Below are positions 10,103 through 58,930 of a stretch of 64,000 bases of DNA, piece by piece. A program made the translations under genes and the position numbers. The notes beneath the pieces are model-generated. The model worked only from the letters and a program-made list of their open reading frames with translations, was not told the DNA's origin and did not search any database. The stretch is from Leptolyngbya sp. NIES-2104. Lineage in GTDB: Bacteria > Cyanobacteriota > Cyanobacteriia > Leptolyngbyales > Leptolyngbyaceae. Within the stretch, counting starts at the first letter, position 1; every line of letters starts with the position of its first letter. The stretch is from contig NZ_BBWW01000001.1 of the NCBI RefSeq assembly GCF_001485215.1, forward strand, positions 1,302,001 to 1,366,000, given 5' to 3'.

Positions 10103-10301
10103 GAGCGTGTTTTAGAATCTTCTGACTGCGTTGTCCACCCGCCCCGGAATGGAATTCGGGGCTAACAGAACGAAGTCCGCGCTCTGGGGACTAAAAGCCA
10201 ATTCGAGTCTCTTCAGTCCTTTTCAAAGGACTTCGCACGATTAGCCCCGAATTCTATTCCGGGGCGGACGTGAACGAAGCGAGAAGCTTTAAATCACAAT
10301 C
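10103..10301. repeat. MITE-like palindromic element, family B (copy B2)
   Basis: About 199 bp. The ends GAGCGTGTTTTAGA and TTTAAATCACAATC are imperfect inverted repeats. Inner arms are CCGCCCCGGAATGGAATTCG and its near complement, and the right arm encloses the hairpin AGTCCTTTTCAAAGGACT. It lies between the CHAT gene and the lanthipeptide locus, on the promoter side of both. Confidence 0.78.
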
Positions 10302-10502
10302 CAGCCCAGAGATTAGAACAACATAGTATTGAAATTGCTTTCATCTATTCAATCAGGAGTAGCCCATTTTTTCAAGATACGTTCTAAATGCTACAATTAA
10401 CCAACTTAGATACTGGTTCTGTTCAAGCAACATTTTGCCTCTTCAACATCAGTACTCATTGTTACAAAAAACACCAGCATGAACTTTAACCCTGAAAAGC
10501 AT

Positions 10503-10536
10503 ATGAGGTTTTAGATGAGATTTATGGATTTGAAAA
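10503..10536 (+). promoter_or_regulatory. Candidate operator: ATGAG direct repeat upstream of the LuxR-type regulator
   Basis: ATGAG, 7 bases, then ATGAGATTTATGGATTTGA: the same layout as at 1414-1447. It ends about 36 bp before the regulator start codon, a position suited to autoregulation. The 200 bp before it (10302-10502) are AT-rich and show no gene. Confidence 0.4.
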
Positions 10537-10572
10537 ATTAAGTCGATCGCTCAAGGTAAAGGGGTGACTAAA

Positions 10573-11268
10573 ATGCTCTTTTCCATTAACCCCATGATTA
10601 CCTCAGAACTGCATCCTACTACCAAGATTAGAAGTTCGACCATTCGGGTTCTATTAATTGATCCGCAGAGTCTCATGCGTACCGGACTGCAAGCAATGTT
10701 AGAGATAGAGACTGACTTGCAAATTGTAGGTAGTCTGGATCATGCAGAAAGCGCGATCGTACAACTTCAGGTTTTGCGTCCCGATGTTGTGTTAATGGAT
10801 AGCTTAGATGGCTGGACTGCGATTCGATCCATCCTCAATCAGTTGCCATCGACAAAAGTTTTAGCACTGAGTACCTACGAGCGAGATGCTGATATTCTTC
10901 AAGCAATGCAAGCAGGTGCAAAAGGATATTTGCTGAAAAATATGCCTGCTCTAGAACTTGCAAAGGCAATTCGTCTTGTTCATTGTGGCTATAGTCAGAT
11001 GGCTCCAGGATTGATGGAAAAGCTGCTTGCTTATGTCTCAGCTTTCACCAATGTTAGGGATCAACTAGGAATAGAGGAAGTCATGCTCACATCCAGGCAA
11101 CAGGATATCTTGCGCCTGATTGGTCAAGGTTGTACAAACCGCGAAATTGCGTTTGAGCTAAATCTTTCAGAAGGAACGATCAAAACCTATGTGACGCAAT
11201 TGTTGAACCGTCTGTCTCTTCGTAATCGATCGCAGCTTGCTATCTATGCAATGTCCATCGTTCTCTAG
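10573..11268 (+). CDS. NarL/LuxR-family response regulator
   Basis: A receiver domain (about residues 20-135) has the phospho-acceptor Asp at about residue 76 in VVLMDSLDG, and KGYLLK supplies the conserved Lys. A C-terminal LuxR-type HTH is seen as LTSRQQDILRLIGQGCTNRE and LNLSEGTIKTYVTQLLNRL. The start at 10573 was chosen for the AAAGGGG ribosome site 8 bases before it; a GTG at 10564 is also in frame. No sensor kinase is adjacent. It is the first gene of a co-directional run ending at 19563 and is the natural candidate to control the lanthipeptide genes. Confidence 0.88.
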   Translation: MLFSINPMITSELHPTTKIRSSTIRVLLIDPQSLMRTGLQAMLEIETDLQIVGSLDHAESAIVQLQVLRPDVVLMDSLDGWTAIRSILNQLPSTKVLALSTYERDADILQAMQAGAKGYLLKNMPALELAKAIRLVHCGYSQMAPGLMEKLLAYVSAFTNVRDQLGIEEVMLTSRQQDILRLIGQGCTNREIAFELNLSEGTIKTYVTQLLNRLSLRNRSQLAIYAMSIVL

Positions 11269-11417
11269 ACGAAAGTAAACACAGAGTATTCTACTTCGTT
11301 CAGTTCAAGTCGAGACGTTCTTCAGATGTTTCTTTCCCGATGAATCTCTAGGATAAAGACATGAAGAACAGCAAAGACTGAACTTCAATCCAACACACAT
11401 TCCATAAGGAGAAACTC

Positions 11418-11771
11418 ATGCCTACTAACATTGACTCCCGCAAAGATGTCGAAACTCAAATCGTCGCTCATGCTTTGAAAGACGATTCATTCAAGCAACA
11501 ACTGCTCAACAATCCTGATGCTGCAAAGGCAGAAGTTGAAAAGCTGCTGGGGCAAAAGGCGCAACCTGGCTTTAAAGTGCAGGTACTTCAAGAGACTGCT
11601 GACACCGCATACATTGTTTTACCCTATGTTCCTTCGACCGAAGGAATGACAGAAGAGCAGTTGGAAGCAGTGGCAAGCGGTACAGTCTCGATCGGCGGTA
11701 ATCTCCAGGTACCCTGTATTCTTGGGTCGGCAACCTTTACCAGTGGCATCAATATCCAAGCTGGTTTATAA
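11418..11771 (+). CDS. NHLP-type lanthipeptide precursor
   Basis: The 117-residue protein has a nitrile-hydratase-alpha-like leader (NHLP): helix VETQIVAHALKDDSFKQQLL, NPDAAKAEVEKLLG, then VQVLQETADTAYIVLPYVP. The leader ends EEQLEAVASG at residue 88, a variant of the double-glycine cleavage site. The remaining 29 residues are the predicted core, with Thr89, Ser91, Cys100, Ser104, Thr106, Thr108 and Ser109, so one thioether ring is possible. A ribosome site (AAGGAGAAA) precedes the start. A LanM gene lies downstream. The leader class is well known for cyanobacterial LanM substrates; the ring pattern is inference. Confidence 0.88.
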   Translation: MPTNIDSRKDVETQIVAHALKDDSFKQQLLNNPDAAKAEVEKLLGQKAQPGFKVQVLQETADTAYIVLPYVPSTEGMTEEQLEAVASGTVSIGGNLQVPCILGSATFTSGINIQAGL

Positions 11772-12014
11772 AACAGGGTTCTGTGTAGGGGCAGATTTTG
11801 CTGAAATCACTGCAAAACGAGCATAGCCTTGCTCAACCTGCTCTTACACGCTCGATTCCACCACCGCTCAACCTGCTTCATTTAGCTCACCCTAACTGAA
11901 GACGGAAATTGCTCAACTGTAAACCGCGATCGCTGATCTTGAGAGTGCCGTTCACCTTGGCTGAATCAGGACTGCGATCGCAGTTCAAACCCCATTACTA
12001 ACCTGGAGTTGTTT

Positions 12015-12686
12015 ATGGATAGAGAGAAGTTTTACGATCGTGTGCGGAATAATTTATTTGGTGGCAGACTGCGTCAGTCACAAGTCGAGGGGATGGAAGC
12101 AATTCTAAATTTTTGGGAAGCGCCACCGATCGCTCCAACCGGAGAATTCAAAATCAATTGGGATATTCGCAGTCTCGGTTGGTTAGCTTATATGCTGGCA
12201 ACGGTCTACCATGAAACTGCTTTCACGATGCAGCCGATCGATGAAGTTGGTAGCGTGGAGTATTTTACTGAGCGGTACGAAGGTTGGGATGAGTTGGGCA
12301 ACAATCAACCAGGCGACGGTGCTAAGTTTCATGGACGTGGATATGTACAGCTTACCGGGCGTAGAAACTATACAACCATGACTCCCATCGTTCGTCAGTT
12401 TTATCCAAACTGCCCAGATTTCACCGTTGATCCTGATGCCGTGAACAATCCCAAATTCGCCGCAGTCATTCTGTTCTATGGTATGTTCATGGGTTCTTTC
12501 ACAGGACATGCGTTGAAGCATTACATTGGTGATCCTGACAAAGGGCAGAAAGTTGATTTTTACAACGCTAGGAGAATCATTAACGGACTTGATCGAGCTA
12601 AATTAATTGCAGATTATGCCGTTAAATTCAACACCGCACTAGAGGGTGCTGATGCTAAGAGCAAGCCGCTTTCTTCAGCCATCTAA
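12015..12686 (+). CDS. GH19 chitinase-like / endolysin-like glycoside hydrolase
   Basis: The 223-residue protein matches the GH19 lysozyme-like fold. The catalytic acid lies in YHETAFTMQP (Glu67), followed by EYFTERYEG and the substrate-cleft strand GRGYVQLTGRRNY. GH19 enzymes cut beta-1,4-linked GlcNAc polymers: chitin, or peptidoglycan in phage endolysins. There is no signal peptide, as in many endolysins that need a holin to reach the wall. ATG at 12015 has GGAG upstream; an in-frame TTG at 12009 is less likely. It sits between the precursor and the LanM gene, which is unusual. Its TAA stop abuts MITE A1. Confidence 0.85.
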   Translation: MDREKFYDRVRNNLFGGRLRQSQVEGMEAILNFWEAPPIAPTGEFKINWDIRSLGWLAYMLATVYHETAFTMQPIDEVGSVEYFTERYEGWDELGNNQPGDGAKFHGRGYVQLTGRRNYTTMTPIVRQFYPNCPDFTVDPDAVNNPKFAAVILFYGMFMGSFTGHALKHYIGDPDKGQKVDFYNARRIINGLDRAKLIADYAVKFNTALEGADAKSKPLSSAI

Positions 12687-12893
12687 GAGGGTGTTTGAAA
12701 AGTATAAAAAGTCTCTTCGCTTCGATTGCCTCCCGCCCTGAAATGAATTTCGGGCTAATGGTGGAAAGTCTACTGAAGTAGACTAAGAGGCAGTTTCAGG
12801 TTCTTAGTTCATTTCAATGGACTTGCGCCGATCAGCCCGAAATTCATTTCAGGGCGGGACGTTGCAACGAACGAAGACTTTTCAAACACTCTC
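12687..12893. repeat. MITE-like palindromic element, family A (copy A1)
   Basis: About 207 bp with terminal inverted repeats GAGGGTGTTTGAAAAGTATA and CTTTTCAAACACTCTC, flanked by TAA on the left (the GH19 stop codon) and CAA on the right. Arms contain CCGCCCTGAAATGAATTTCG and its complement. Each arm encloses a hairpin, AGTCTACTGAAGTAGACT on the left and AGTTCATTTCAATGGACT on the right. There is no ORF. The remaining 80 bp before the LanM gene show nothing else. Confidence 0.85.
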
Positions 12894-12974
12894 CAAGATA
12901 CAGACCTTAGATTGCTCGAACTTTAGCACTGATTCAGCCTAACCGTCGTTGATGCAACAGTGAGTTGAGGAAAT

Positions 12975-15900
12975 ATGCAAATCACCCAAGAAGATCTGAT
13001 CAAAATTGTAGAACAAGCCAGTACAATCCCCGAACGATTGGGAACTGAGTTTTTACCCAACTCAATGCAAATCGACAACAGCACCATTGATTCGCGGATA
13101 GACCATTGGTGTCAAACTGTAGCTCAAGGAAACCCAGCACAATTTGAAAAGCGGCTCACTTGGGATGATTTGGATTTAAGCAAGATTCGTCAGGCACTAG
13201 GTTCTGTTCATCTAGCTAACCCGCAAAATCTACCAGCTTGGGCAGAAACCTTAAGAGCAGTTTTGGAATCTATTGATTTAGATTCTGTGCTTGCTTTAGA
13301 CAAAAATCTCTTAGAGGAAAAGTATCCTTTAGATGCCAAACAACCGCTTCCGTTTGAGGAACTGTCTTTGCCATTCATTGACTTTGCTCGGCAAACATTA
13401 ATGGCTCGATCAGGTTTTAACTATTTCCTACTTTCAGCCGAATCTCATGCCACTTTAGAGCGATCGCTGCTTCAGTCGTTGACGTTGCTCTGTTCCCAAG
13501 CAATGGGAGATGATTTTCTGGTGTTTCGGCTCTATGAACAACCTTGCTTAATTCGTCAAATTGGGCAACTAGAGGGTAGCCATTCCACCGAGCAATACGA
13601 TAAATTTATTCGGAAAATGTTGGCAGGCGAACTGCTCAATTTTTTTCAAGAATACGCTGTATTAGCTCGACTGGTCGCGACACTCACCGATTTTTGGGTC
13701 AATCACTTCAGCGAATTCCTGCAACGATTAGCTTCAGACTGGTCAAATATTCAGGTTACTTTTCAAGGCGGCGCAGAACTCGGACAAGTCGTAAGCATTC
13801 AGCCTGGTCTTTCTGATGCTCATCACAATGGGCGATCGGTAATCAAACTGACCTTTGCTTCTGGATTAAAGCTAATTTATAAGCCCAAAGACTTAGGTTT
13901 AGAGGAAGCTTATTTTCAGCTAGTGTCTTGGTTGAATGAAAATGGAATTCCTCAGCCATTGAAAGTCCTTCAGTTAATCAATTGTTCGGGTTATGGTTGG
14001 GTTGAATACGTCGAACATTGTCCTTGTCCTGATCAAGCAGCCGTGGCGCGGTATTACCAACGAGCAGGAATGCTGTTGTGCTTGCTGTATTCACTCTCAG
14101 GTACAGACTTTCATCAAGAGAATATTATTGCTTGTGGAGAGCATCCCGTCCCGATCGATTTAGAAATGCTGATGTCTGCGGTCGCTCGGCAGGAAGAAAG
14201 CTCAGAGATTACCGCGAACGCTGTATCTATGGCTTTTGATCAGTTTACTTACTCGGTACTAAGCACTAGCCTTCTGCCAAGTTGGGAATTGGGACGAGAC
14301 GGAGTTGCTTATGATATGAGTGGTTTAGGTGGATTTGGGGATCAACCGACCAATTTTCACAGGCTGGTATGGCGAAATATCAACACAGATGGTATGGTAT
14401 TGCATCGAGAAGATGTTAAAACGCGATCGTGCTCCAATGTCGTGATTCTAAACGGCGTACGAGTATCACTGAGCGATTATGCAGAAGAACTGGTGGAAGG
14501 ATTTCGCCAGATGTATCAGTTCCTGATCGCCCACCAAGACACTCTTTTAGCTGCGAATAGTTCATTGATCGTGTTAGCACATCAACGAGTCCGTTCTATT
14601 TTTCGTGCGACTCAAGTTTATACTTCGCTGCTTGCAGAAACACTACAGCCCAAATTTCTTAGAGATGGTGCTGAACGGAGTATCGCATTAGATGTTCTTA
14701 GTAAATCACTCCTCAAATATGAGAAAAAACCAAATAGCTGGAAGATTGTCGCAGCAGAGCAACAAGCGCTAACTCATCTCGATATTCCATTTTTTAGCAC
14801 TCATCCCGATCGCTATGATTTAACGATTAGCGCTGATCAGTCAGTCAAGCATTATTTTGTGGAGTCAAGCTATGACCACATTGTGACTCGATTCCGTCAA
14901 CTGAATGAAACTGATTTAGCACAGCAGATTGGTTTTATTCGCAGTTCGTTGTACACAAATTTTGCAGGCAATTTTGCATCTCCGCTCTCTGAGAAGCCTA
15001 TACTGAACCTTGATGCCATTGAACCGATCGCTAAAAAAACATTGATCCAGCAAGCAGAAGCGATCGCTCTAGAGTTACAAACTCGTGCAATCTGTGCGCC
15101 TGACGGTAGCGTGACGTGGATCGGAATGAGCTATCTACCCGAAGCTGAACGGCTACAACAAATGCCAATGGGCTATGACCTTTATGATGGAACGTTTGGA
15201 GTTGCTCTGTTTCTATCTGCATTAGAAAAAGTGACCGGAAATGGAAAATTTCATCGTTTAGCTTTAGGTGCACTGCAACCTTTATTCAACCTTCTGCAAA
15301 TCTCGAATCCGTTGCACAAGCAGGCTATTCTGAGAAAAATTGGTGTAGGTGGAGGAAAGGGTTTCGGCTCAATTCTCTATACGTTGGTGCGGAGCAGTCA
15401 GTTTTTAGCAGAACCGATGCTTTTGAATGAAGCTCAATCTATTGCCTCTGTCATCATACCAGAACTGATCGCGAACGATCGCAAGTTTGACGTGATCTCT
15501 GGGACAGCGGGGACTATTTTAGGATTGTTAGCGCTGCATCAAGCAACATTCAATCCAGCAGTTCTAGAACAGGCAGTCCTCTGTGGCTATCATTTATTGA
15601 ATCACCGTACCGTGAGTGATAGAGGTCTGAAAGCATGGAAAACCTTGAATGGGGAAGTTTTGACGGGCTTTTCTCACGGTGCGGCGGGCATTGCCTACAG
15701 TTTGCTGCGATTGTATGAAGTGACTCAAAATGCCGAGTTTTTAGCCGCTGCTACTGAAGCGATCGCTGATGAACAAAGCGCCTTTAGGGAAACCTCAGAA
15801 TTTGCGACGAGTTGGTGTAATGGTGCTCCTGGTATTGGTTTAGCTCGTTTAGGGAGCTTGGCAATTTTAGAGACGGATGAGATTCGGCAAGAAATCGCGA

Positions 15901-16211
15901 TCGCGCTGCAAACAACACAGAAGCTCGGAATCCAAGACATTGATCATCTCTGTTGCGGCAACTTTGGGCGGATTGAAACGCTGCTAGTTGGAGCGATTCA
16001 ACTCAAGCAACCAGAACTTGCAGAAATTGCTCAAAAGCAAGCAGCGTGGATTGTAACTAGAGCGATCAATACAGGTTCTTTTCAGCTATTTCCCAAGCTT
16101 TTCAGAGGAATTTATAATCCTGGTTTCTTTCAAGGATCTGCTGGAATTGGGTATGAATTGCTGAGATTAGCACATCCAGAACAGCTTCCTTCGGTATTGC
16201 TGTGGCAGTAA
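12975..16211 (+). CDS. lanM: Class II lanthipeptide synthetase (LanM)
   Basis: The 1078-residue bifunctional enzyme phosphorylates and dehydrates Ser/Thr, then adds Cys thiols to form (methyl)lanthionine. The N-terminal dehydratase domain (about residues 100-650) shows KLIYKPKDLGLEEAYFQLV, the kinase-like GTDFHQENIIACGEHPVPID (His380) and DLEM. The C-terminal LanC-like cyclase (about 690-1078) shows GFSHGAAGIAYS, SWCNGAPGIGLA (Cys948) and HLCCGNFGRIE (Cys993, Cys994). The zinc site is therefore Cys-Cys-Cys, as in ProcM-like enzymes, rather than the usual Cys-Cys-His. The precursor gene lies 1.2 kb upstream. No LanT-type transporter is encoded within the window. Confidence 0.95.
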   Translation: MQITQEDLIKIVEQASTIPERLGTEFLPNSMQIDNSTIDSRIDHWCQTVAQGNPAQFEKRLTWDDLDLSKIRQALGSVHLANPQNLPAWAETLRAVLESIDLDSVLALDKNLLEEKYPLDAKQPLPFEELSLPFIDFARQTLMARSGFNYFLLSAESHATLERSLLQSLTLLCSQAMGDDFLVFRLYEQPCLIRQIGQLEGSHSTEQYDKFIRKMLAGELLNFFQEYAVLARLVATLTDFWVNHFSEFLQRLASDWSNIQVTFQGGAELGQVVSIQPGLSDAHHNGRSVIKLTFASGLKLIYKPKDLGLEEAYFQLVSWLNENGIPQPLKVLQLINCSGYGWVEYVEHCPCPDQAAVARYYQRAGMLLCLLYSLSGTDFHQENIIACGEHPVPIDLEMLMSAVARQEESSEITANAVSMAFDQFTYSVLSTSLLPSWELGRDGVAYDMSGLGGFGDQPTNFHRLVWRNINTDGMVLHREDVKTRSCSNVVILNGVRVSLSDYAEELVEGFRQMYQFLIAHQDTLLAANSSLIVLAHQRVRSIFRATQVYTSLLAETLQPKFLRDGAERSIALDVLSKSLLKYEKKPNSWKIVAAEQQALTHLDIPFFSTHPDRYDLTISADQSVKHYFVESSYDHIVTRFRQLNETDLAQQIGFIRSSLYTNFAGNFASPLSEKPILNLDAIEPIAKKTLIQQAEAIALELQTRAICAPDGSVTWIGMSYLPEAERLQQMPMGYDLYDGTFGVALFLSALEKVTGNGKFHRLALGALQPLFNLLQISNPLHKQAILRKIGVGGGKGFGSILYTLVRSSQFLAEPMLLNEAQSIASVIIPELIANDRKFDVISGTAGTILGLLALHQATFNPAVLEQAVLCGYHLLNHRTVSDRGLKAWKTLNGEVLTGFSHGAAGIAYSLLRLYEVTQNAEFLAAATEAIADEQSAFRETSEFATSWCNGAPGIGLARLGSLAILETDEIRQEIAIALQTTQKLGIQDIDHLCCGNFGRIETLLVGAIQLKQPELAEIAQKQAAWIVTRAINTGSFQLFPKLFRGIYNPGFFQGSAGIGYELLRLAHPEQLPSVLLWQ

Positions 16212-16254
16212 TCTTACTCTGCTTGTCAAAACACCTTTACACACGGCTAGTGCG

Positions 16255-17232
16255 ATGAACGTATCATTACCAACCGTCAACAAATTACCGACAACCGATT
16301 TACCGTTTTACCGCAAACTTGGACGAACCGATCTCACCGTTAGCTGTCTCGGTTTGGGTGGTGGGTGTGGCATTTCGAGCGACGATACCCTTTATGCTTT
16401 CGAGCAGGGAATCAACTATTTCTTCTATTCCAGTGATCTACACCACTTCATGTATAGTTCTATGTCTGGTGCATTGCGTCAGATGTGTGGGCGTGGCTCT
16501 TCAGTGCGTGAGCAAGTGGTATTAGCAACCGTCACTTATATCAAAAATCCAGAGGCAGCGATCGCGGTTTTGCTGGATCAATTTATCGAACTGGGAATTG
16601 ATTACATCGATATCTTGTTTTGGGGTTGGATCGGTACTAATGATAGCAAAGCGCTACAAGATTGCTTACAGATCTCCAATGAGTTAAAGCGCCCAGATTC
16701 TTTTTATCAGAATGCGATCGAACAATTCATGGGGACATCAGAGCGATTAAAAAAGATGGGAGCAGTCCGTTATATTGGTGCTTCTTTTCACGATATCCAT
16801 TTAGCGCAGCAATGGTTAAATAGTCCGCTGCTCGATGTTGTGATGGTGCGGCACAATGCAGGGCATCGGTTTGCCCAAACCCAAATTTTTAACCAACTCA
16901 GTTCTGCGGATACTGAGCGTTCTGGAATTGTCACCTTTAAATCGACAAGCTGTCGGACTGGAAATCTCTGGCAGCAACCAGAGGGTTTACCAAGTGACTG
17001 CTGGCGACCTCAAGCCCCAGATTTGTATCGTTATTCTTTGAGCCAAAACTGTGTCGATGTTTGCTTGACCGGATTAAGGAACAAAGAAGAGATTGATGCC
17101 GCGATCGCAGGTGTGAGACAAGGAAAACTGACCTTGGACGAAATTGAATACCTCAATGTCTACGGAGACTTACATCAAAATCGTCTGCGAGTTCAAAATA
17201 TCCCGATCGAGAAGCTACTTTATCGGGCTTAG
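16255..17232 (+). CDS. Aldo/keto-reductase-like protein lacking the catalytic tetrad
   Basis: The fold of the aldo/keto reductase family is evident: FYRKLGRTDLTVSCLGLGGG at the start, LGIDYIDILFWGW, GAVRYIGASFHDIHLAQQW, and a C-terminal DVCLTGLRNKEEIDAAIAG. The usual tetrad Asp-Tyr-Lys-His is not visible. The region expected to read FDTAxxYG reads INYFFYSSDLHHF, the Lys position reads VVLATVTY, and the His position in strand 4 reads FWGW. It may bind substrate or cofactor without classical reduction, or use other residues. It starts 43 bp after the LanM stop, so it is probably in the lanthipeptide operon. Confidence 0.78.
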   Translation: MNVSLPTVNKLPTTDLPFYRKLGRTDLTVSCLGLGGGCGISSDDTLYAFEQGINYFFYSSDLHHFMYSSMSGALRQMCGRGSSVREQVVLATVTYIKNPEAAIAVLLDQFIELGIDYIDILFWGWIGTNDSKALQDCLQISNELKRPDSFYQNAIEQFMGTSERLKKMGAVRYIGASFHDIHLAQQWLNSPLLDVVMVRHNAGHRFAQTQIFNQLSSADTERSGIVTFKSTSCRTGNLWQQPEGLPSDCWRPQAPDLYRYSLSQNCVDVCLTGLRNKEEIDAAIAGVRQGKLTLDEIEYLNVYGDLHQNRLRVQNIPIEKLLYRA

Positions 17233-17269
17233 TTTCGAGCAAATCGTTACTCTAATTGAGGTGAAAACT

Positions 17270-18133
17270 ATGAATGAACTGCAAAATCTACAGCTAACAC
17301 AGCAAAACGGGGCGGGATGGGTTCCAGACCCTGATGATGAGCGAGACAGAACGAATTACATTGAAATTTTGAGTGATCTACCCACATCAGTAGATTTGCG
17401 AGAATGGTGTTCCCCGATCGAGAACCAAGGTAACATCAATTCTTGTACTGCCCACGCAGCGATCGCATTAGTAGAGTATTTTGAGCGTCAAGCATCCGGG
17501 AAGCACTTGGATTTATCTCGGTTGTTTCTCTATAAAGTGACCAGAAACTTGCTTCGCTGGACAGGAGACAAAGGAGCAAATCCTAGAACCACGATCAAAG
17601 CTTTAGCACTGTTTGGGTCGATCGCAGAAGAATACTGGGCTTATGAAGAAGCAAAACTAGACGAGGAGCCTCCTGCTTTTTGCTATGCCTTTGCGAGTAA
17701 TTACCAAGCTCTAGAGTATTACCGAATTGACATTAAAGGCAGAACTAGAGACGTGGTTTTGCAACAGATTAAAGCAAATTTAGCAGCGGGTCGTCCTTTA
17801 ATGTTTGGTGCAATTTTGCATCATAGCAGCATGCAGCAAGCGACGAAAACGGGGATGATTCCGGTTCCTGTGCAGTCTGATCCGATGTGGGGCGGTCACA
17901 CAATGGCAGCCGTGGGATACGACGACACCATCAAAATTAAAAATACTGATCCGACAGGAACAGAAACAACCGGAGCCATTCTCATTAGAAACTCATGGGG
18001 GCTTGAATGGGGCGATAAAGGCTATGGTTGGCTTCCTTATGAGTATGTCTTAAGACCCTTATCGAATGATTGGTGGACAGTGCTGAAGTCCGAATGGGTA
18101 GATACTGGAAAGTTTGATGCCAAGAAATCGTGA
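17270..18133 (+). CDS. Papain-like (C1A) cysteine peptidase
   Basis: The 287-residue protein has the papain catalytic set: Gln53 and Cys59 in ENQGNINSCTAHA, His210 in GGHTMAAVGYDD and Asn241 in IRNSWGLEWGDKGYGWLPYE. The start GWVPDPDDERD is typical of this bacterial subgroup, and there is no signal peptide or long propeptide. ATG at 17270 has GAGGTGAAAA before it; a longer frame starting at 17144 would overlap the preceding gene by 89 bases. Position in the locus makes it a candidate leader peptidase for the lanthipeptide or a lysis-type enzyme. Both ideas are inference. Confidence 0.87.
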   Translation: MNELQNLQLTQQNGAGWVPDPDDERDRTNYIEILSDLPTSVDLREWCSPIENQGNINSCTAHAAIALVEYFERQASGKHLDLSRLFLYKVTRNLLRWTGDKGANPRTTIKALALFGSIAEEYWAYEEAKLDEEPPAFCYAFASNYQALEYYRIDIKGRTRDVVLQQIKANLAAGRPLMFGAILHHSSMQQATKTGMIPVPVQSDPMWGGHTMAAVGYDDTIKIKNTDPTGTETTGAILIRNSWGLEWGDKGYGWLPYEYVLRPLSNDWWTVLKSEWVDTGKFDAKKS

Positions 18134-18169
18134 CGCGATGGAATCATTCACTTCATACAGGAGATCACA

Positions 18170-18451
18170 ATGACGACAACTCAAGAATCGCTTTCGACAA
18201 ACAAACCCGCACCGAAAAGCATCTTCGCTAGTAGAACGTTTTGGGGCGCAATGCTAACACTGGTTGTTGCGATCGCGCCCAAGGTCGGTGAGATGGTTGA
18301 CAACAAAAAGGTTGATGGAGCAAGCATCTCTCAGCTTATCGTGCTGTTTGGAACAACGACACTGACAATCATCGGGCGGGTTGAAGCGAAACGACCGATT
18401 TACACACCTGATGGGGTGCCAGGTCCAAACAAGTCAGATCTTGCACAGTAA
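18170..18451 (+). CDS. Small holin-like membrane protein
   Basis: The 93-residue protein has a polar N-terminus, a hydrophobic segment FWGAMLTLVVAIAPKVGEMV, a short charged loop, a second one (ISQLIVLFGTTTLTIIG) and then RVEAKRPIYTPDGVPGP. Two transmembrane segments closed by GRVxAK match the layout of several phage holin families. A ribosome site (CAGGAG) precedes the start. It is 36 bp downstream of the papain-like gene. With the GH19 enzyme this gives a holin/endolysin-like pair, but no other phage genes are present. The holin label rests on topology and motif resemblance. Confidence 0.6.
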   Translation: MTTTQESLSTNKPAPKSIFASRTFWGAMLTLVVAIAPKVGEMVDNKKVDGASISQLIVLFGTTTLTIIGRVEAKRPIYTPDGVPGPNKSDLAQ

Positions 18452-18457
18452 TCAAAA

Positions 18458-18489
18458 GCAATGGATAAGCTATATAGCTTATCCATTGC
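18458..18489. promoter_or_regulatory. Perfect 32-bp palindrome without spacer
   Basis: The 16-base half GCAATGGATAAGCTAT is followed at once by its exact complement. It begins 6 bp after the stop of the holin-like gene and ends 27 bp before the next start. There is no T-run after it, so a classic terminator is unlikely. A dimeric protein site or an mRNA-stabilising hairpin are possible. Confidence 0.6.
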
Positions 18490-18516
18490 CACTTCTACAA
18501 TGGTCTAGGAGCCGCA

Positions 18517-19563
18517 ATGCTAAAGACATCATTGCCCAATCGCAATTTGAATGACAATGATCTCCTTGAAACTGCTCTAAAAAGTTATCGGCTTGGTCGC
18601 ACTAAACCGATTCAGTTTGTATTAAAGCAGTATGGAGACTTCTTCACTCACGGGTTATACCTGCGGATGATGTGCCGTTTATCGCAGGAAGACTATGCGA
18701 TTATCCAGCAAGCAGCCAGCGTTCGTGAAACTGCTGTAATGGCGATCCGCTGTGGAGAGTTTGTGAGAGCGGAGCAGCTTTTTGCAGAAATACGCACCTC
18801 GATCGAAGCTAATTTGCTGTCACCAGAAGGCAGTTTGCTACATCAATCTTTTCTTGAACAGGCTGAAGCTTACCTCGATTATCGCAAGGGTGACTTTGAC
18901 CAAGTTTACACTCGCACATTGGCTGCTTTAGCGATCGATGTCGTCTTAGAAAAAGAGTACGGATACGAAATGATGCATATCCACCGCATTCAACTTCTGC
19001 ACAATCTTGTGCGGACTGAGGCAAGACGAATGCGCTATGATCGTGCGATCGAGCTTGCTGCTCAACTGCTGGCTTACCTGGAAGGGACATTAAAGGGTTT
19101 GCCATTTCCAGGAGTCTGGGGTTTTGAGTCTGTCATCTCTCAGCCCGAAGAACTTGTAGCAGCAACCTTTGCACAAATCGCGAGTGAAATCGCTGTGATT
19201 CTGGCAGGAAAACCTCATCAGTTCGCTAGAGAGTTACTAGCAGTTGTCAGGCATTACATTCCCGCACAATTACAGAAACATCATCACGGACATCCACGAG
19301 CTTATGATTGGTTTCTGCTTAAGGAGTCGTTTTTAGAAAACGATATTGCTACCTTTTTAGAACGATCGTCTCACTTCCTAGCAGAGGGACGTACTGATAC
19401 ACCACTGCTTTGGTATGCTACTGTCGCGGATGTGGTCGCATTGTGTAACGATTTTGATCAACCTTACGCGTTTCGGGTAAGGCAAGAAGTTGCTACCGAT
19501 GCTACTAACTGGAAACTGCTTCCGCAAGCATTATCTGTTCTACTTGACATTCAGGCGAACTGA
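18517..19563 (+). CDS. Helical protein of unknown function at the end of the lanthipeptide locus
   Basis: The 348-residue product is rich in alpha-helical, TPR-like segments (ETAVMAIRCGEFVRAEQLFA, FLEQAEAYLDYRKGDFDQVY, YDRAIELAAQLLAYLEG). A His-rich turn, LQKHHHGHPRAYDWFLLKE, lies around residue 260. It has no signal peptide or membrane segment. I do not recognise a named family; a protein-protein scaffold of the tetratricopeptide kind fits best. It is co-directional with the genes upstream but separated by the 32-bp palindrome. About 250 bp after it are gene-free apart from a decayed repeat at 19684. Confidence 0.7.
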   Translation: MLKTSLPNRNLNDNDLLETALKSYRLGRTKPIQFVLKQYGDFFTHGLYLRMMCRLSQEDYAIIQQAASVRETAVMAIRCGEFVRAEQLFAEIRTSIEANLLSPEGSLLHQSFLEQAEAYLDYRKGDFDQVYTRTLAALAIDVVLEKEYGYEMMHIHRIQLLHNLVRTEARRMRYDRAIELAAQLLAYLEGTLKGLPFPGVWGFESVISQPEELVAATFAQIASEIAVILAGKPHQFARELLAVVRHYIPAQLQKHHHGHPRAYDWFLLKESFLENDIATFLERSSHFLAEGRTDTPLLWYATVADVVALCNDFDQPYAFRVRQEVATDATNWKLLPQALSVLLDIQAN

Positions 19564-19818: not shown

Positions 19819-20124
19819 TTACACTTGCCCAACCAGGGATTGAATTTCAGAAAGCTTGCCAATACTGATAGGCATCGTGAACCTACCGAGTGCAACATGA
19901 TCAGAGCTGTCCGGTTTATAATGAACCCAGAATGCAAGCTTCGGGGGCAACCCTGCGATCAGCCCAAATCCTTCAAATCGATAATCCTGATTTCCTTCAA
20001 TGTCAGTGATGTCTGCTCCGAATTTGAGCGCTGGCGGTAAACCTTTCGCGGTACAAGTGTTGTTGATTGTGTCGATCGTTTGATGAGAATTCGCAAGAAT
20101 TGTCAAAATAGTAGCGACGGGCAT
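19819..20124 (-). CDS. Conserved-looking small protein of unknown function
   Basis: ATG at 20124 was chosen because AAGGAG lies just before it; an in-frame ATG at 20199 lacks such a site. The 101-residue product starts PVATILTILANSHQTIDTI and has the segments KFGADITDIEGNQDYRFEGF and LAFWVHYKPDSSDHVALGRF, which suggest a small beta-rich domain. It has no membrane segment or cysteine cluster apart from one Cys. It stands alone, convergent with the lanthipeptide locus. I do not recognise the family. Confidence 0.6.
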   Translation of the reverse strand: MPVATILTILANSHQTIDTINNTCTAKGLPPALKFGADITDIEGNQDYRFEGFGLIAGLPPKLAFWVHYKPDSSDHVALGRFTMPISIGKLSEIQSLVGQV

Positions 20125-20302
20125 AAGAATCTCCTTGTTCTGGTAATCGTTGTGGTGCTGAACTATGCCTATCTTAGAGATTGAACTGAGGAGAAACATC
20201 TGGAGATCGTCTTAACTCGTGTTAAACGAAATAAGACAGGTCTGATTAACTTTCGTCGTACCTACTAAATCTTCCAGGCAGTCCCACCATTCAAAGACTA
20301 CG

Positions 20303-21877: not shown

Positions 21878-22054
21878 ATCAATTCCTAGCTAAAATTGGC
21901 GGCAATCGTACAGCACATCGTCTGAAGCGACCAAAGGGAATACGCTGCCCTTTGCAGTAGGAGTTGTGAAAAATCTAGTACTTTATTCTGCGATCGGTTT
22001 TCGAGTCATGTTGAAGAAGGTCACAATTTTTAAGATTAACATTCACATCGCTTA

Positions 22055-22261
22055 GAGGATGTTTGAAAAGTTGTCGTTCGTTGCCACGTCCCGCCCTGAA
22101 ATGAATTTCGGGCGGGACGTGGCAAGTCCATTGAAATGGACTAAGAACTTGAAAATAGCTCCTAGTCTACTGAAGTAGACTTTCCACGATTAGCCCGAAA
22201 TTCATTTCAGGGCGGGAGGCAACCGAAGCGAAGAAACTTTTTATACTTTTCAAACACCCTC
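22055..22261. repeat. MITE-like element, family A (copy A2, rearranged left arm)
   Basis: The terminal repeats GAGGATGTTTGAAAAGT and ACTTTTCAAACACCCTC are flanked by an exact TTA duplication. Right-arm motifs are as in the other copies. The left arm contains a perfect 16-bp inverted repeat (22081-22096 against 22110-22125), which is not present in other copies. Confidence 0.85.
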
Positions 22262-46644: not shown

Positions 46645-46851
46645 GAGGGAGTTTGAAACGTATAGAAAGTCTTTTCGCTTCGATTGCACCCCGCCCTGAA
46701 ATGAATTTCGGGCTAACTGTGGAAAGTCTACTGAAGTAGACTGGGAGGCGGTTTGAAGTTCTTAGTCCATTTCAATGGACTTGCGCCGATTAGCCCAAAA
46801 TTCATTTCAGGGCGGGACGATGCAGCGAACGAAAGCTCCTCAAACACTCTC
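46645..46851. repeat. MITE-like element, family A (copy A4)
   Basis: It begins at the base after the Ca-ATPase TAA stop and has an exact TAA duplication (46642-46644 and 46852-46854). Ends GAGGGAGTTTGAAACG and CTCCTCAAACACTCTC. Arm hairpins are AGTCTACTGAAGTAGACT and AGTCCATTTCAATGGACT. It separates the ATPase gene from a terminator. Confidence 0.87.
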
Positions 46852-46864
46852 TAAGGTTGCTTTG

Positions 46865-52631: not shown

Positions 52632-52975
52632 CCGAACTGCCAGCCGAATAGAATTCGGGGCTACACAGACAAAGTGTGCGTCAAGCACACTAGGAGGATG
52701 TTTGAAAAGTTGTCGTTCGTTGCCACATCCCGCCCTGAAATGAATTTCGGGCTAATCGGCGCAAGTCCTTTGAAAAGGACTAAGAGACTGAAACTGGCTC
52801 CCAGTCTACTTCAGTAGACTTTCGTCGGTTAGCCCGAAATTCCATTTCAGGGCGGGAAGCAATCGAAGCGAATAGACTTTATATACTTTTCAAACACCCT
52901 CTAACAACCGTTTTTCGGTCAGTCCGCGCCCGGTGGACTTCGTTTGTATAGCCGCGAATTCTATTCGCTAGGGCA
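52632..52975. repeat. Family B-like element split by an inserted family A element
   Basis: GCCGAATAGAATTCGGGGCT lies at about 52640, and the matching GCCGCGAATTCTATTCG at about 52951. Between them sits a complete family A copy (52694-52901). Joined across it, the outer parts form one palindromic B-like unit. Confidence 0.7.
52694..52901. repeat. MITE-like element, family A (copy A5, nested)
   Basis: Ends GAGGATGTTTGAAAAGT and ACTTTTCAAACACCCTC, flanked by TAG and TAA. Arm hairpins are AGTCCTTTGAAAAGGACT and AGTCTACTTCAGTAGACT. It is inserted within a family B-like element. Confidence 0.87.
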
Positions 52976-58518: not shown

Positions 58519-58722
58519 GTGTCAAACCAGGTCGCACAGTTTCATCAATTAGCCTTGCAGAATCACACTCTTGTTGAGCAATTACGCAAAGCAACCGATT
58601 TTCAGAGCTTTGTTGTCCTCACGGTCAAACTTGGTAAAGAACACGGCTACAGTTTTACTTACCGAGAGGTTGAACAGTATGTTCGCCGCAATATGATCAC
58701 CTTAATGCGACAGTTCTCCTAG
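58519..58722 (+). CDS. Nif11-domain small protein, leader-only form
   Basis: GTG at 58519, after GGAGGAATCATT, gives 67 residues. The Nif11 pattern is visible: VAQFHQLALQNHTLVEQLRK, FVVLTVKLGKEHGYSFTYRE, VEQYV. It ends shortly after the domain (RRNMITLMRQFS), so there is no core peptide region. It may be a non-precursor Nif11 protein or a remnant. Its TAG stop overlaps the first base of MITE A6. A longer frame from the ATG at 58450 is possible but lacks a ribosome site. Confidence 0.75.
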   Translation: MSNQVAQFHQLALQNHTLVEQLRKATDFQSFVVLTVKLGKEHGYSFTYREVEQYVRRNMITLMRQFS

Positions 58723-58930
58723 AAGGTGTTTGACAAGCATAAGAAGTCTTTTCGCTTCGATTGCTTCCCGCCCTGAAATGGAATTTCGGGCTAACCGTGG
58801 AAAGTCTACTGAAGTAAACTGGGAGATAGTTATAGATTCTTAGTCCATTTCTAATGGACTTGCGCCGATTAGCCCGAAATTCATTTCAGGGCGAGATATG
58901 GCAACGGACGACAACTTTTCAAACATCCTC
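58722..58930. repeat. MITE-like element, family A (copy A6)
   Basis: Ends GAAGGTGTTTGACAAGCATA and CAACTTTTCAAACATCCTC; left flank CTA, right flank TTA. The left hairpin is AGTCTACTGAAGTAAACT and the right one AGTCCATTTCTAATGGACT. Its first G completes the TAG stop of the Nif11 gene. Confidence 0.82.

Follow-up and report, generated by a model that had tools for sequence, protein, structure and literature searches.

A proteusin-leader class II lanthipeptide cluster with a candidate stand-alone C1A leader protease in Leptolyngbya sp. NIES-2104

We analysed a 64,000-nucleotide stretch of DNA from the cyanobacterium Leptolyngbya sp. NIES-2104 (hereafter the window; contig NZ_BBWW01000001.1, abbreviated C1, C1:1302001-1366000; the genome measures 6.39 Mb, falls into five contigs and is 99.96% complete), which carries a locus of eight genes built around a LanM synthetase. 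With somewhat more confidence than doubt, we read this locus as a cluster for a class II lanthipeptide with an NHLP (proteusin-type) leader, equipped with its own stand-alone C1A (papain-like) leader protease. All eight genes lie on the plus strand, and their presence and place as given in a preliminary reading of the letters alone (the sequence-only reading) were confirmed (Table 1), with qualifications for the holin-like and AKR-like proteins.

The precursor has a nitrile-hydratase-like leader and passes the cut-off of TIGR03793, as a proteusin-type peptide should. In this genome and in that of Calothrix sp. NIES-3974, matches to this model are confined to the clusters discussed here, and the precursor of the window is the only one in its genome. 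The leader ends in LEAVASG (M-T-E-E-Q-L-E-A-V-A-S-G) and is followed by a 29-residue core, TVSIGGNLQVPCILGSATFTSGINIQAGL, containing a single Cys and several Ser/Thr, the residues needed for a class II product. The LanM, the only one in the genome, comprises dehydratase and LanC domains and, in a motif alignment, keeps the WC and CCG motifs, which we take to be those of the zinc site. This enzyme would dehydrate Ser/Thr of the core and, because the core has one Cys, could close at most one thioether ring.

The C1A protein carries the expected Gln, Cys, His and Asn motifs (motifs at 51, 208 and 239), and its best solved relative is 3ois_A (1.4e-30). In our class sample (291 genomes, 33 of them with LanM at E<=1e-50), close relatives of this peptidase (E<=1e-45) occupy 29 places in 25 genomes, only two of which are beside LanM. 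These proportions look like a refutation of any tie to LanM; nonetheless, the LanM-linked C1As form one clade. In a tree of the 70 best-scoring rows of the gathered set, the enzymes of the window, Calothrix, a second cyanobacterium (genome G076), Sinorhizobium medicae and Rhizobium etli grouped together with support of 100/99 and in 100% of 200 bootstrap trees. None of the other 65 rows was seen beside LanM, as judged from the fetched flanks and, for the class genomes, from the genome-wide LanM places. A scan of GTDB genomes for C1A confirmed 85 stretches, and 80 loci were kept; their flanks reached up to 10 kb but were sometimes very short. LanM was sought throughout with the LanM of the window only. 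The C1A gene is thus a real and unusual feature of the cluster.

The gene sets of the related cyanobacterial clusters point in the same direction. The Calothrix cluster packs into 9 kb two NHLP precursors (65-70% identical to that of the window) and counterparts of LanM (74%), C1A (76%), the 93-aa protein (41%) and the helical protein (72%). In the 20.9 kb examined, it showed no GH19, no AKR-like gene and no relative of the regulator. A single locus in G076 combines a regulator (63%), a Nif11-type precursor, LanM (42%), C1A (68%) and the 93-aa protein (86%), with no GH19 found there. Across the cyanobacterial LanM–C1A clusters found, C1A and the 93-aa protein are therefore present in 3/3, the helical protein in 2/3, and GH19 and the AKR-like gene in 1/3. 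The G076 locus may differ in its chemistry, too: the Nif11-type precursor (L082 13530-13844) has a Cys-free core and adjoins a LanM (10114-13464) with CGG for CCG, so that in the alignment the CCG pair is short of one Cys although the first zinc-site Cys is conserved. Such residues suggest a dehydration-only product.

In rhizobia, 11 Sinorhizobium plasmids carry this LanM, and on all 11 a C1A match starts about 435 bases from it, although these are not independent, because the copies are near-identical. The R. etli plasmid has both genes, with a shortened LanM. On the symbiosis plasmids of R. etli and S. medicae (L310, L311) the LanM and C1 peptidase genes form a divergent pair, which in R. 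etli has nodA and nodB in its vicinity; a search of the small open reading frames in these rhizobial LanM–C1A clusters yielded no convincing precursor. On an R. leguminosarum plasmid (L340 1-8931), one of the Rhizobium records with no C1A match, a related LanM adjoins TfuA, YcaO, MoaD/ThiS, MoeB and methyltransferase genes, perhaps a cluster for a thioamide-type ribosomally synthesized and post-translationally modified peptide (RiPP).

A precedent for the proposed role is PoyH, a C1A protease known to cut an NHLP leader after LDQAAGG (PMC10885120). The end of the window's leader, LEAVASG, resembles this site. By analogy with PoyH, the likeliest function of the C1A enzyme is that of a leader protease, which would work in the cytosol and sever the leader behind LEAVASG. 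We note that the likeness to PoyH is drawn from its published description. The sequence-only reading had also cast the papain-like enzyme as the remover of the leader, and in this respect the LanM-linked clade and the PoyH precedent speak in its favour. Away from LanM, in genome G016 (L038 9209-10731), a C1A gene adjoins a gene for a chagasin-type inhibitor (PF09394), like PoyH and PoyG.

If the leader is removed by a separate enzyme, the product must still be exported, and no C39-ABC protein (LanT) is borne by the cluster. No C39 domain was found in the 64-kb window, and the six C39 matches of the genome all lie elsewhere, in agreement with the earlier observation that no transporter is visible at the locus. 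A complete NHLM exporter is encoded about 650 kb away, at C1:653062-659850, with ABC1, ABC2 and HlyD all above their cut-offs (TIGR03796, 1178 bits; TIGR03797, 1038 bits; TIGR03794, 390 bits). Export would most likely proceed through this unlinked system or another ABC exporter. The sequence-only reading had allowed that a LanT dedicated to this precursor, if located elsewhere, would speak against its own proposal; an exporter does exist, and it is a candidate for such a dedicated one. In favour of this route, NHLM ABC1 (TIGR03796) also passes the cut-off in Calothrix; as it occurs in 30 of 145 class-sample genomes (and in 0 of 14 control genomes), its presence in two genomes out of two could be chance at about 4%. 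The premise that LanM loci normally carry LanT proved weak: when 20 such loci from cyanobacteria were searched by tblastn with five C39 queries, a C39 domain lay within the fetched stretch in 8. Counting three loci whose NHLM exporter is 6 to 19 kb away brings this to at least 11/20. A missing local exporter is common, and a remote one is not odd.

The same exporter opens a possible but rather doubtful alternative, namely that the unlinked NHLM system both cuts and exports the precursor, whereas C1A acts elsewhere, e.g., as a defence or degradation enzyme. Several observations favour it or otherwise weigh against a dedicated C1A protease, whose cleavage of the precursor is itself a step deduced from sequence. 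C39 enzymes want hydrophobic residues at positions -4, -7 and -12 of the leader (PMC10885120); the leader end has them and fits this pattern, so that C39 alone could suffice for leader cleavage. At the NHLP–LanM–AKR loci of genomes G148 and G160, the NHLM exporter lies within 6-19 kb and no C1A was found in the searched stretch. More generally, many related LanM loci lack the peptidase: C1A is absent from the fetched stretch in 19 of the 20 class LanM loci retrieved besides the window, and the 26 plasmid records that bear a LanM of this type divide into 12 with a C1A match and 14 with none (11 from Rhizobium, with LanM 78-86% identical, and 3 from Mycetohabitans, 35%). In the tree, a long branch leads to the C1As of the rhizobia; in a quicker tree of 119 rows, which does not include G076 and contains a second copy of the window's own C1A, the rhizobial pair joined the window and Calothrix with an approximate likelihood-ratio support (SH-aLRT) of 78. 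The Calothrix C1A (L102 9938-10869) is split between two frames, its last ~30 residues, past the catalytic motifs, being in the other frame, which may reflect decay or a sequencing error. Neither G076 nor S. medicae has an NHLM exporter over the cut-off, and the exporter of this genome is flanked by small GG peptides of its own. Mutual exclusion of C1A and C39 was considered and dropped, since C39 near LanM in 0/4 C1A-bearing clusters versus 8/19 others is not a significant difference (p=0.26). What decides us for C1A as the leader protease is that the LanM-linked enzymes, found in two phyla, belong to one clade; a bystander would hardly do so.

The sequence-only reading went further and proposed that the product may be released by a holin/endolysin-type route. 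Spelled out, the 93-aa protein would be the holin, GH19 the endolysin and C1A the leader protease, and part of the population would burst. We regard this as quite unlikely. Some features do fit, in that neither GH19 nor C1A has a hydrophobic N-terminal stretch (by a simple look at hydropathy) and the 93-aa protein, present in all three cyanobacterial LanM–C1A clusters, has two hydrophobic helices (residues 22-44 and 50-70 of an AlphaFold2 (AF2) model, pLDDT 65.6). GH19, though, was found in neither the Calothrix nor the G076 cluster. The gene itself has no Pfam match at E<=0.1; relatives occur in 121 of the 291 class genomes, but only three others reach at least 65% identity (G020, 80%; G163; G199), and none of the three was seen beside LanM. 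LanM is absent at E<=1e-50 from both G163 and G199, where GH19 adjoins, by eye, an arginyl-tRNA synthetase-like gene. In G020, which is of the same genus, GH19 lies close to the end of a contig, behind genes for a regulator and a caspase, and LanM is on another contig. That the two might be neighbours across the contig gap found no support: the 0.8 kb tail after GH19, which ends in the start of another gene (presumably DJ-1/PfpI-like, by eye), has no 15-mer in common with either end of the contig that carries LanM. The G020 caspase-domain protein (L237 6171-8051, G020:C177) has a weak Phage_holin_1 match in its C-terminal part and is followed by GH19; the match reaches 26.6 bits to PF04531 over the whole protein (cut-off 22), with no single stretch passing. 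This pair sits behind a conserved kinase–regulator module whose regulator is 62% identical to that of the window, which lends the lysis idea some support. In our preferred reading, GH19 would have joined the cluster later and would go with the regulator, not with LanM.

As for the 93-aa protein, it is holin-like by its two hydrophobic helices and by nothing significant in the family searches. Its family has 25 places in 20 of the 291 genomes, two in LanM clusters and 23 in genomes without a LanM match, and the surroundings of 20 of these places were inspected. In G022 a homologue (74%) adjoins an Amidase_3/glucosaminidase gene and a C39_2 match below the cut-off, and in G017 another lies ~4.5 kb from a 42% relative of GH19, with other genes between; both would suit a lysis function. 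At 16 further loci no wall hydrolase was recognised alongside by eye within 2.6 kb. The window protein has no Pfam match and meets a PHROG holin only at 0.26. Among 15 family members, PF04531 (Phage_holin_1) is touched by two (best E 0.055) and phrog_34682 (holin) by one (0.032), whereas 14 match a PHROG family of unknown function. In a fold search with the low-confidence model a holin topped the viral matches, but at E=0.89, and the phage relatives amount to one record, a hypothetical protein (E=2e-3). Because no holin family is reached significantly, we do not file the protein as a holin. Of the genes expected to co-occur with LanM, C1A and the 93-aa protein do so in all three clusters, although the latter is mostly found off LanM (23/25), whereas GH19 does not. 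With GH19 not conserved and its closest homologues not seen beside LanM, the 93-aa protein not significantly a holin and an ABC exporter present in the genome, we consider the lysis route unsupported so far. A variant in which a recurring, regulator-controlled lysis module (cysteine peptidase, small membrane protein, wall hydrolase) has been joined to a lanthipeptide, leader removal and lysis being one programmed act, appears very unlikely, too. The recurrence cited for it spans three species of the genus, namely the window, G020 (caspase with a holin-type match plus GH19) and G022 (93-aa protein plus amidase and C39-like peptidase).

A last alternative concerns the regulator, which is 62-63% identical to regulators in G076, G020 and a plasmid of Gloeocapsa PCC 7428. 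A 24-mer, TCGAGACGTTCTTCAGATGTTTCT, upstream of the window precursor (11310) recurs exactly (24/24) in G076 and G020. The G076 copies precede the Nif11 precursor and a second gene; those of G020 precede the caspase gene (one mismatch) and a gene at the contig end. A -10-like block, AATCTCTAnGAT, follows five of the six distinct copies, a second one in the window included, and is absent at the last G020 copy. The 21-mer of the element, with up to 3 mismatches, did not occur in 100 shuffles of the window. On the Gloeocapsa plasmid a 54-base match (85%), at one of two places, lies 3' of the same kinase, peroxidase and regulator genes and 5' of a crystallin-type gene. Since the element is conserved across loci that bear this regulator, the precursor is probably tied to it, and the NarL-type protein would turn on the precursor through the element. 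GH19 could share the precursor's transcript, a palindromic repeat separating it from LanM.

Relatives of the regulator elsewhere stand before other output genes. A conserved module of DAHL kinase, cytochrome c peroxidase, kinase and regulator genes was seen on the Gloeocapsa plasmid (L342 3133-12036) and in G076 (L082), and the output genes behind it vary, including a PatA/PatG-type protease. It is conceivable, if unlikely, that a single stress-response system, made up of kinase, cytochrome c peroxidase and response regulator, governs changing outputs (peptidases, wall enzymes, peptides), and that RiPP and lytic genes share a switch and not a mechanism. The module is the same in G076, G020 and the Gloeocapsa plasmid, with the element before the first output gene in each, and the outputs do differ (Nif11 precursor–LanM–C1A; caspase–GH19; crystallin–CAP–PatA/PatG protease). 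Against this, Calothrix keeps LanM, C1A and the 93-aa protein as a group although its 20.9 kb yielded no relative of the regulator, and beside the window cluster only the regulator of the module is present. We return to the lanthipeptide cluster with its own probable C1A protease, in which the 93-aa membrane protein and the TPR-like helical protein would be regular companions of LanM and C1A, serving perhaps, as a guess, for self-protection or hand-over to the membrane.

The remaining member of the cluster, the protein with an aldo-keto reductase (AKR) fold, is marked by its company. Its family has 18 places in 16 of the 291 genomes: three beside LanM (the window, G148 and G160) and 15 beside an APH-type kinase and a HopA1-type protein (Pfam names taken from one representative locus). 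The APH/HopA1-type pair dehydrates Ser/Thr in class V lanthipeptides (PMC9486802), and the AKR-like protein thus stands beside a Ser/Thr dehydratase in 18/18 places. LanM itself is found in 7 of the 16 genomes with this family versus 26 of the 275 others (p=0.0007, kinship not corrected). The canonical catalytic tetrad of aldo-keto reductases is Asp-Tyr-Lys-His. In an alignment with one canonical reference, all 16 rows had other residues in place of Asp, Tyr and His; the Lys column was gapped, and eight family rows read VLATV where the reference has VLATK. The description "AKR-like" hence holds for the fold, with a PF00248 match above the cut-off, but not for the canonical catalytic residues, and the reaction is probably not ordinary AKR chemistry, to judge from these substitutions. 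No relative in the PDB was found by sequence at E<=0.01. From the company that it keeps, the protein would add a change that depends on dehydrated residues. As a separate observation, the cassette of APH kinase, HopA1-type and tetrad-less AKR-like genes is conserved at L324 3993-8034 and 14 further cyanobacterial loci (L314-L323, L325-L328); with a peptidyl-prolyl isomerase in 13 of the 15, these loci are class V lanthipeptide-like.

Gaps of 36 to 65 bases separate the five genes that begin with LanM and end with the helical protein. The unit may also include a small gene at 19819-20199 (minus strand), which bears a second copy of the promoter element; it has no match in a Pfam scan, and a homologue (35% over 103 aa) stands before the 93-aa gene in G022. 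The AF2 model of the helical protein is a TPR-like superhelix of low confidence (pLDDT 64.7), with TPR-like matches in a fold search only at E>=0.04. Its sole relative among the 291 genomes (G119, 33%) adjoins a radical SAM gene and two GG-type peptides, and for this reason the protein looks RiPP-linked. Palindromic repeats of one kind occur five times in the window (12691-12900, 22051-22257, 46651-46855, 52690-52897 and 58726-58925), four copies being 87-89% identical to that at 12691, and a related kind lies at 10121-10300. Two further stretches, 1640-1801 and 58531-58686, are weakly similar to the G076 Nif11-type precursor (E ~2e-6, small database) and are possible further precursor-like genes.

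Table 1. Features of the cluster and its borders (window coordinates)
Feature	Coordinates	Strand	Remarks
NarL/LuxR-type response regulator	10564..11268	+	Pfam PF00072 + PF00196; no histidine kinase gene adjoining
Promoter element of precursor, 24-mer + -10-like block (AATCTCTAGGAT)	11310..11354	+	
NHLP precursor	11418..11771	+	TIGR03793 65.3 bits, cut-off 50.9
GH19-type (endolysin-like) hydrolase	12015..12686	+	PHROG 181 (endolysin) 1.2e-26
Palindromic repeat between GH19 and LanM	12731..12859	.	58-nt arms
LanM, class II lanthipeptide synthetase	12975..16211	+	TIGR03897 947 bits, PF13575, PF05147
AKR-fold protein, lanthipeptide tailoring candidate	16255..17232	+	PF00248 28.2 bits, cut-off 24
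Stand-alone C1A papain-like peptidase	17270..18133	+	PF00112 53.9 bits, cut-off 20.7
93-aa protein, two hydrophobic helices	18170..18451	+	Holin-like by shape only
TPR-like helical protein	18517..19563	+	AF2 model, all helical
Small gene, likely start 20124	19819..20199	-	Homologue in G022
Second promoter-element copy, before small gene	20171..20215	-	4/24 mismatches; 2/21 for 21-mer

Among described systems, the polytheonamide cluster is alike in its NHLP precursor, its LanM-type dehydratase (PoyF, dehydratase domain only), its stand-alone C1A protease (PoyH, with the inhibitor PoyG) and its double-glycine-like cut site (PMC10885120, PMC9505594). The cluster described here differs in that its LanM is complete, cyclase motifs included, and is accompanied by an AKR-like protein; its eight genes comprise neither a chagasin-type inhibitor nor the remaining poy enzymes. 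Class II lanthipeptides with Nif11/NHLP leaders and a C39 exporter, such as the nostolysamides, share LanM, a long leader and a double-glycine-like end; in place of their exporter (NpuT, PMC13060382) the window cluster has a C1A protease. Class V lanthipeptide/thioamitide cassettes, home to 15 of the 18 AKR-like family places, rely on the APH kinase and HopA1 lyase, the chemistry of which is that of CaoK/CaoY (PMC9486802), and a thioamitide cluster carries a C1A, ThoK; the dehydratase in the window is LanM instead. A phage holin–endolysin cassette would likewise have a two-helix protein and an enzyme like this GH19, but here 5.5 kb, LanM included, separates the two genes. We found no account of the present arrangement in the literature on C1/papain-like leader proteases in RiPP and lanthipeptide clusters, where subscription papers were thinly covered, and recognised none in that on holins with lanthipeptide release or on AKR with HopA1.

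Taken together, the LanM-linked C1A clade, shared by cyanobacteria and rhizobial symbiosis plasmids, likely comprises leader-cutting enzymes, and stand-alone leader proteases are useful for making RiPPs outside their hosts. The AKR-fold family, devoid of the canonical reductase residues and, in all 18 places seen, next to a Ser/Thr dehydratase of class II or class V type, is a possible new tailoring enzyme.

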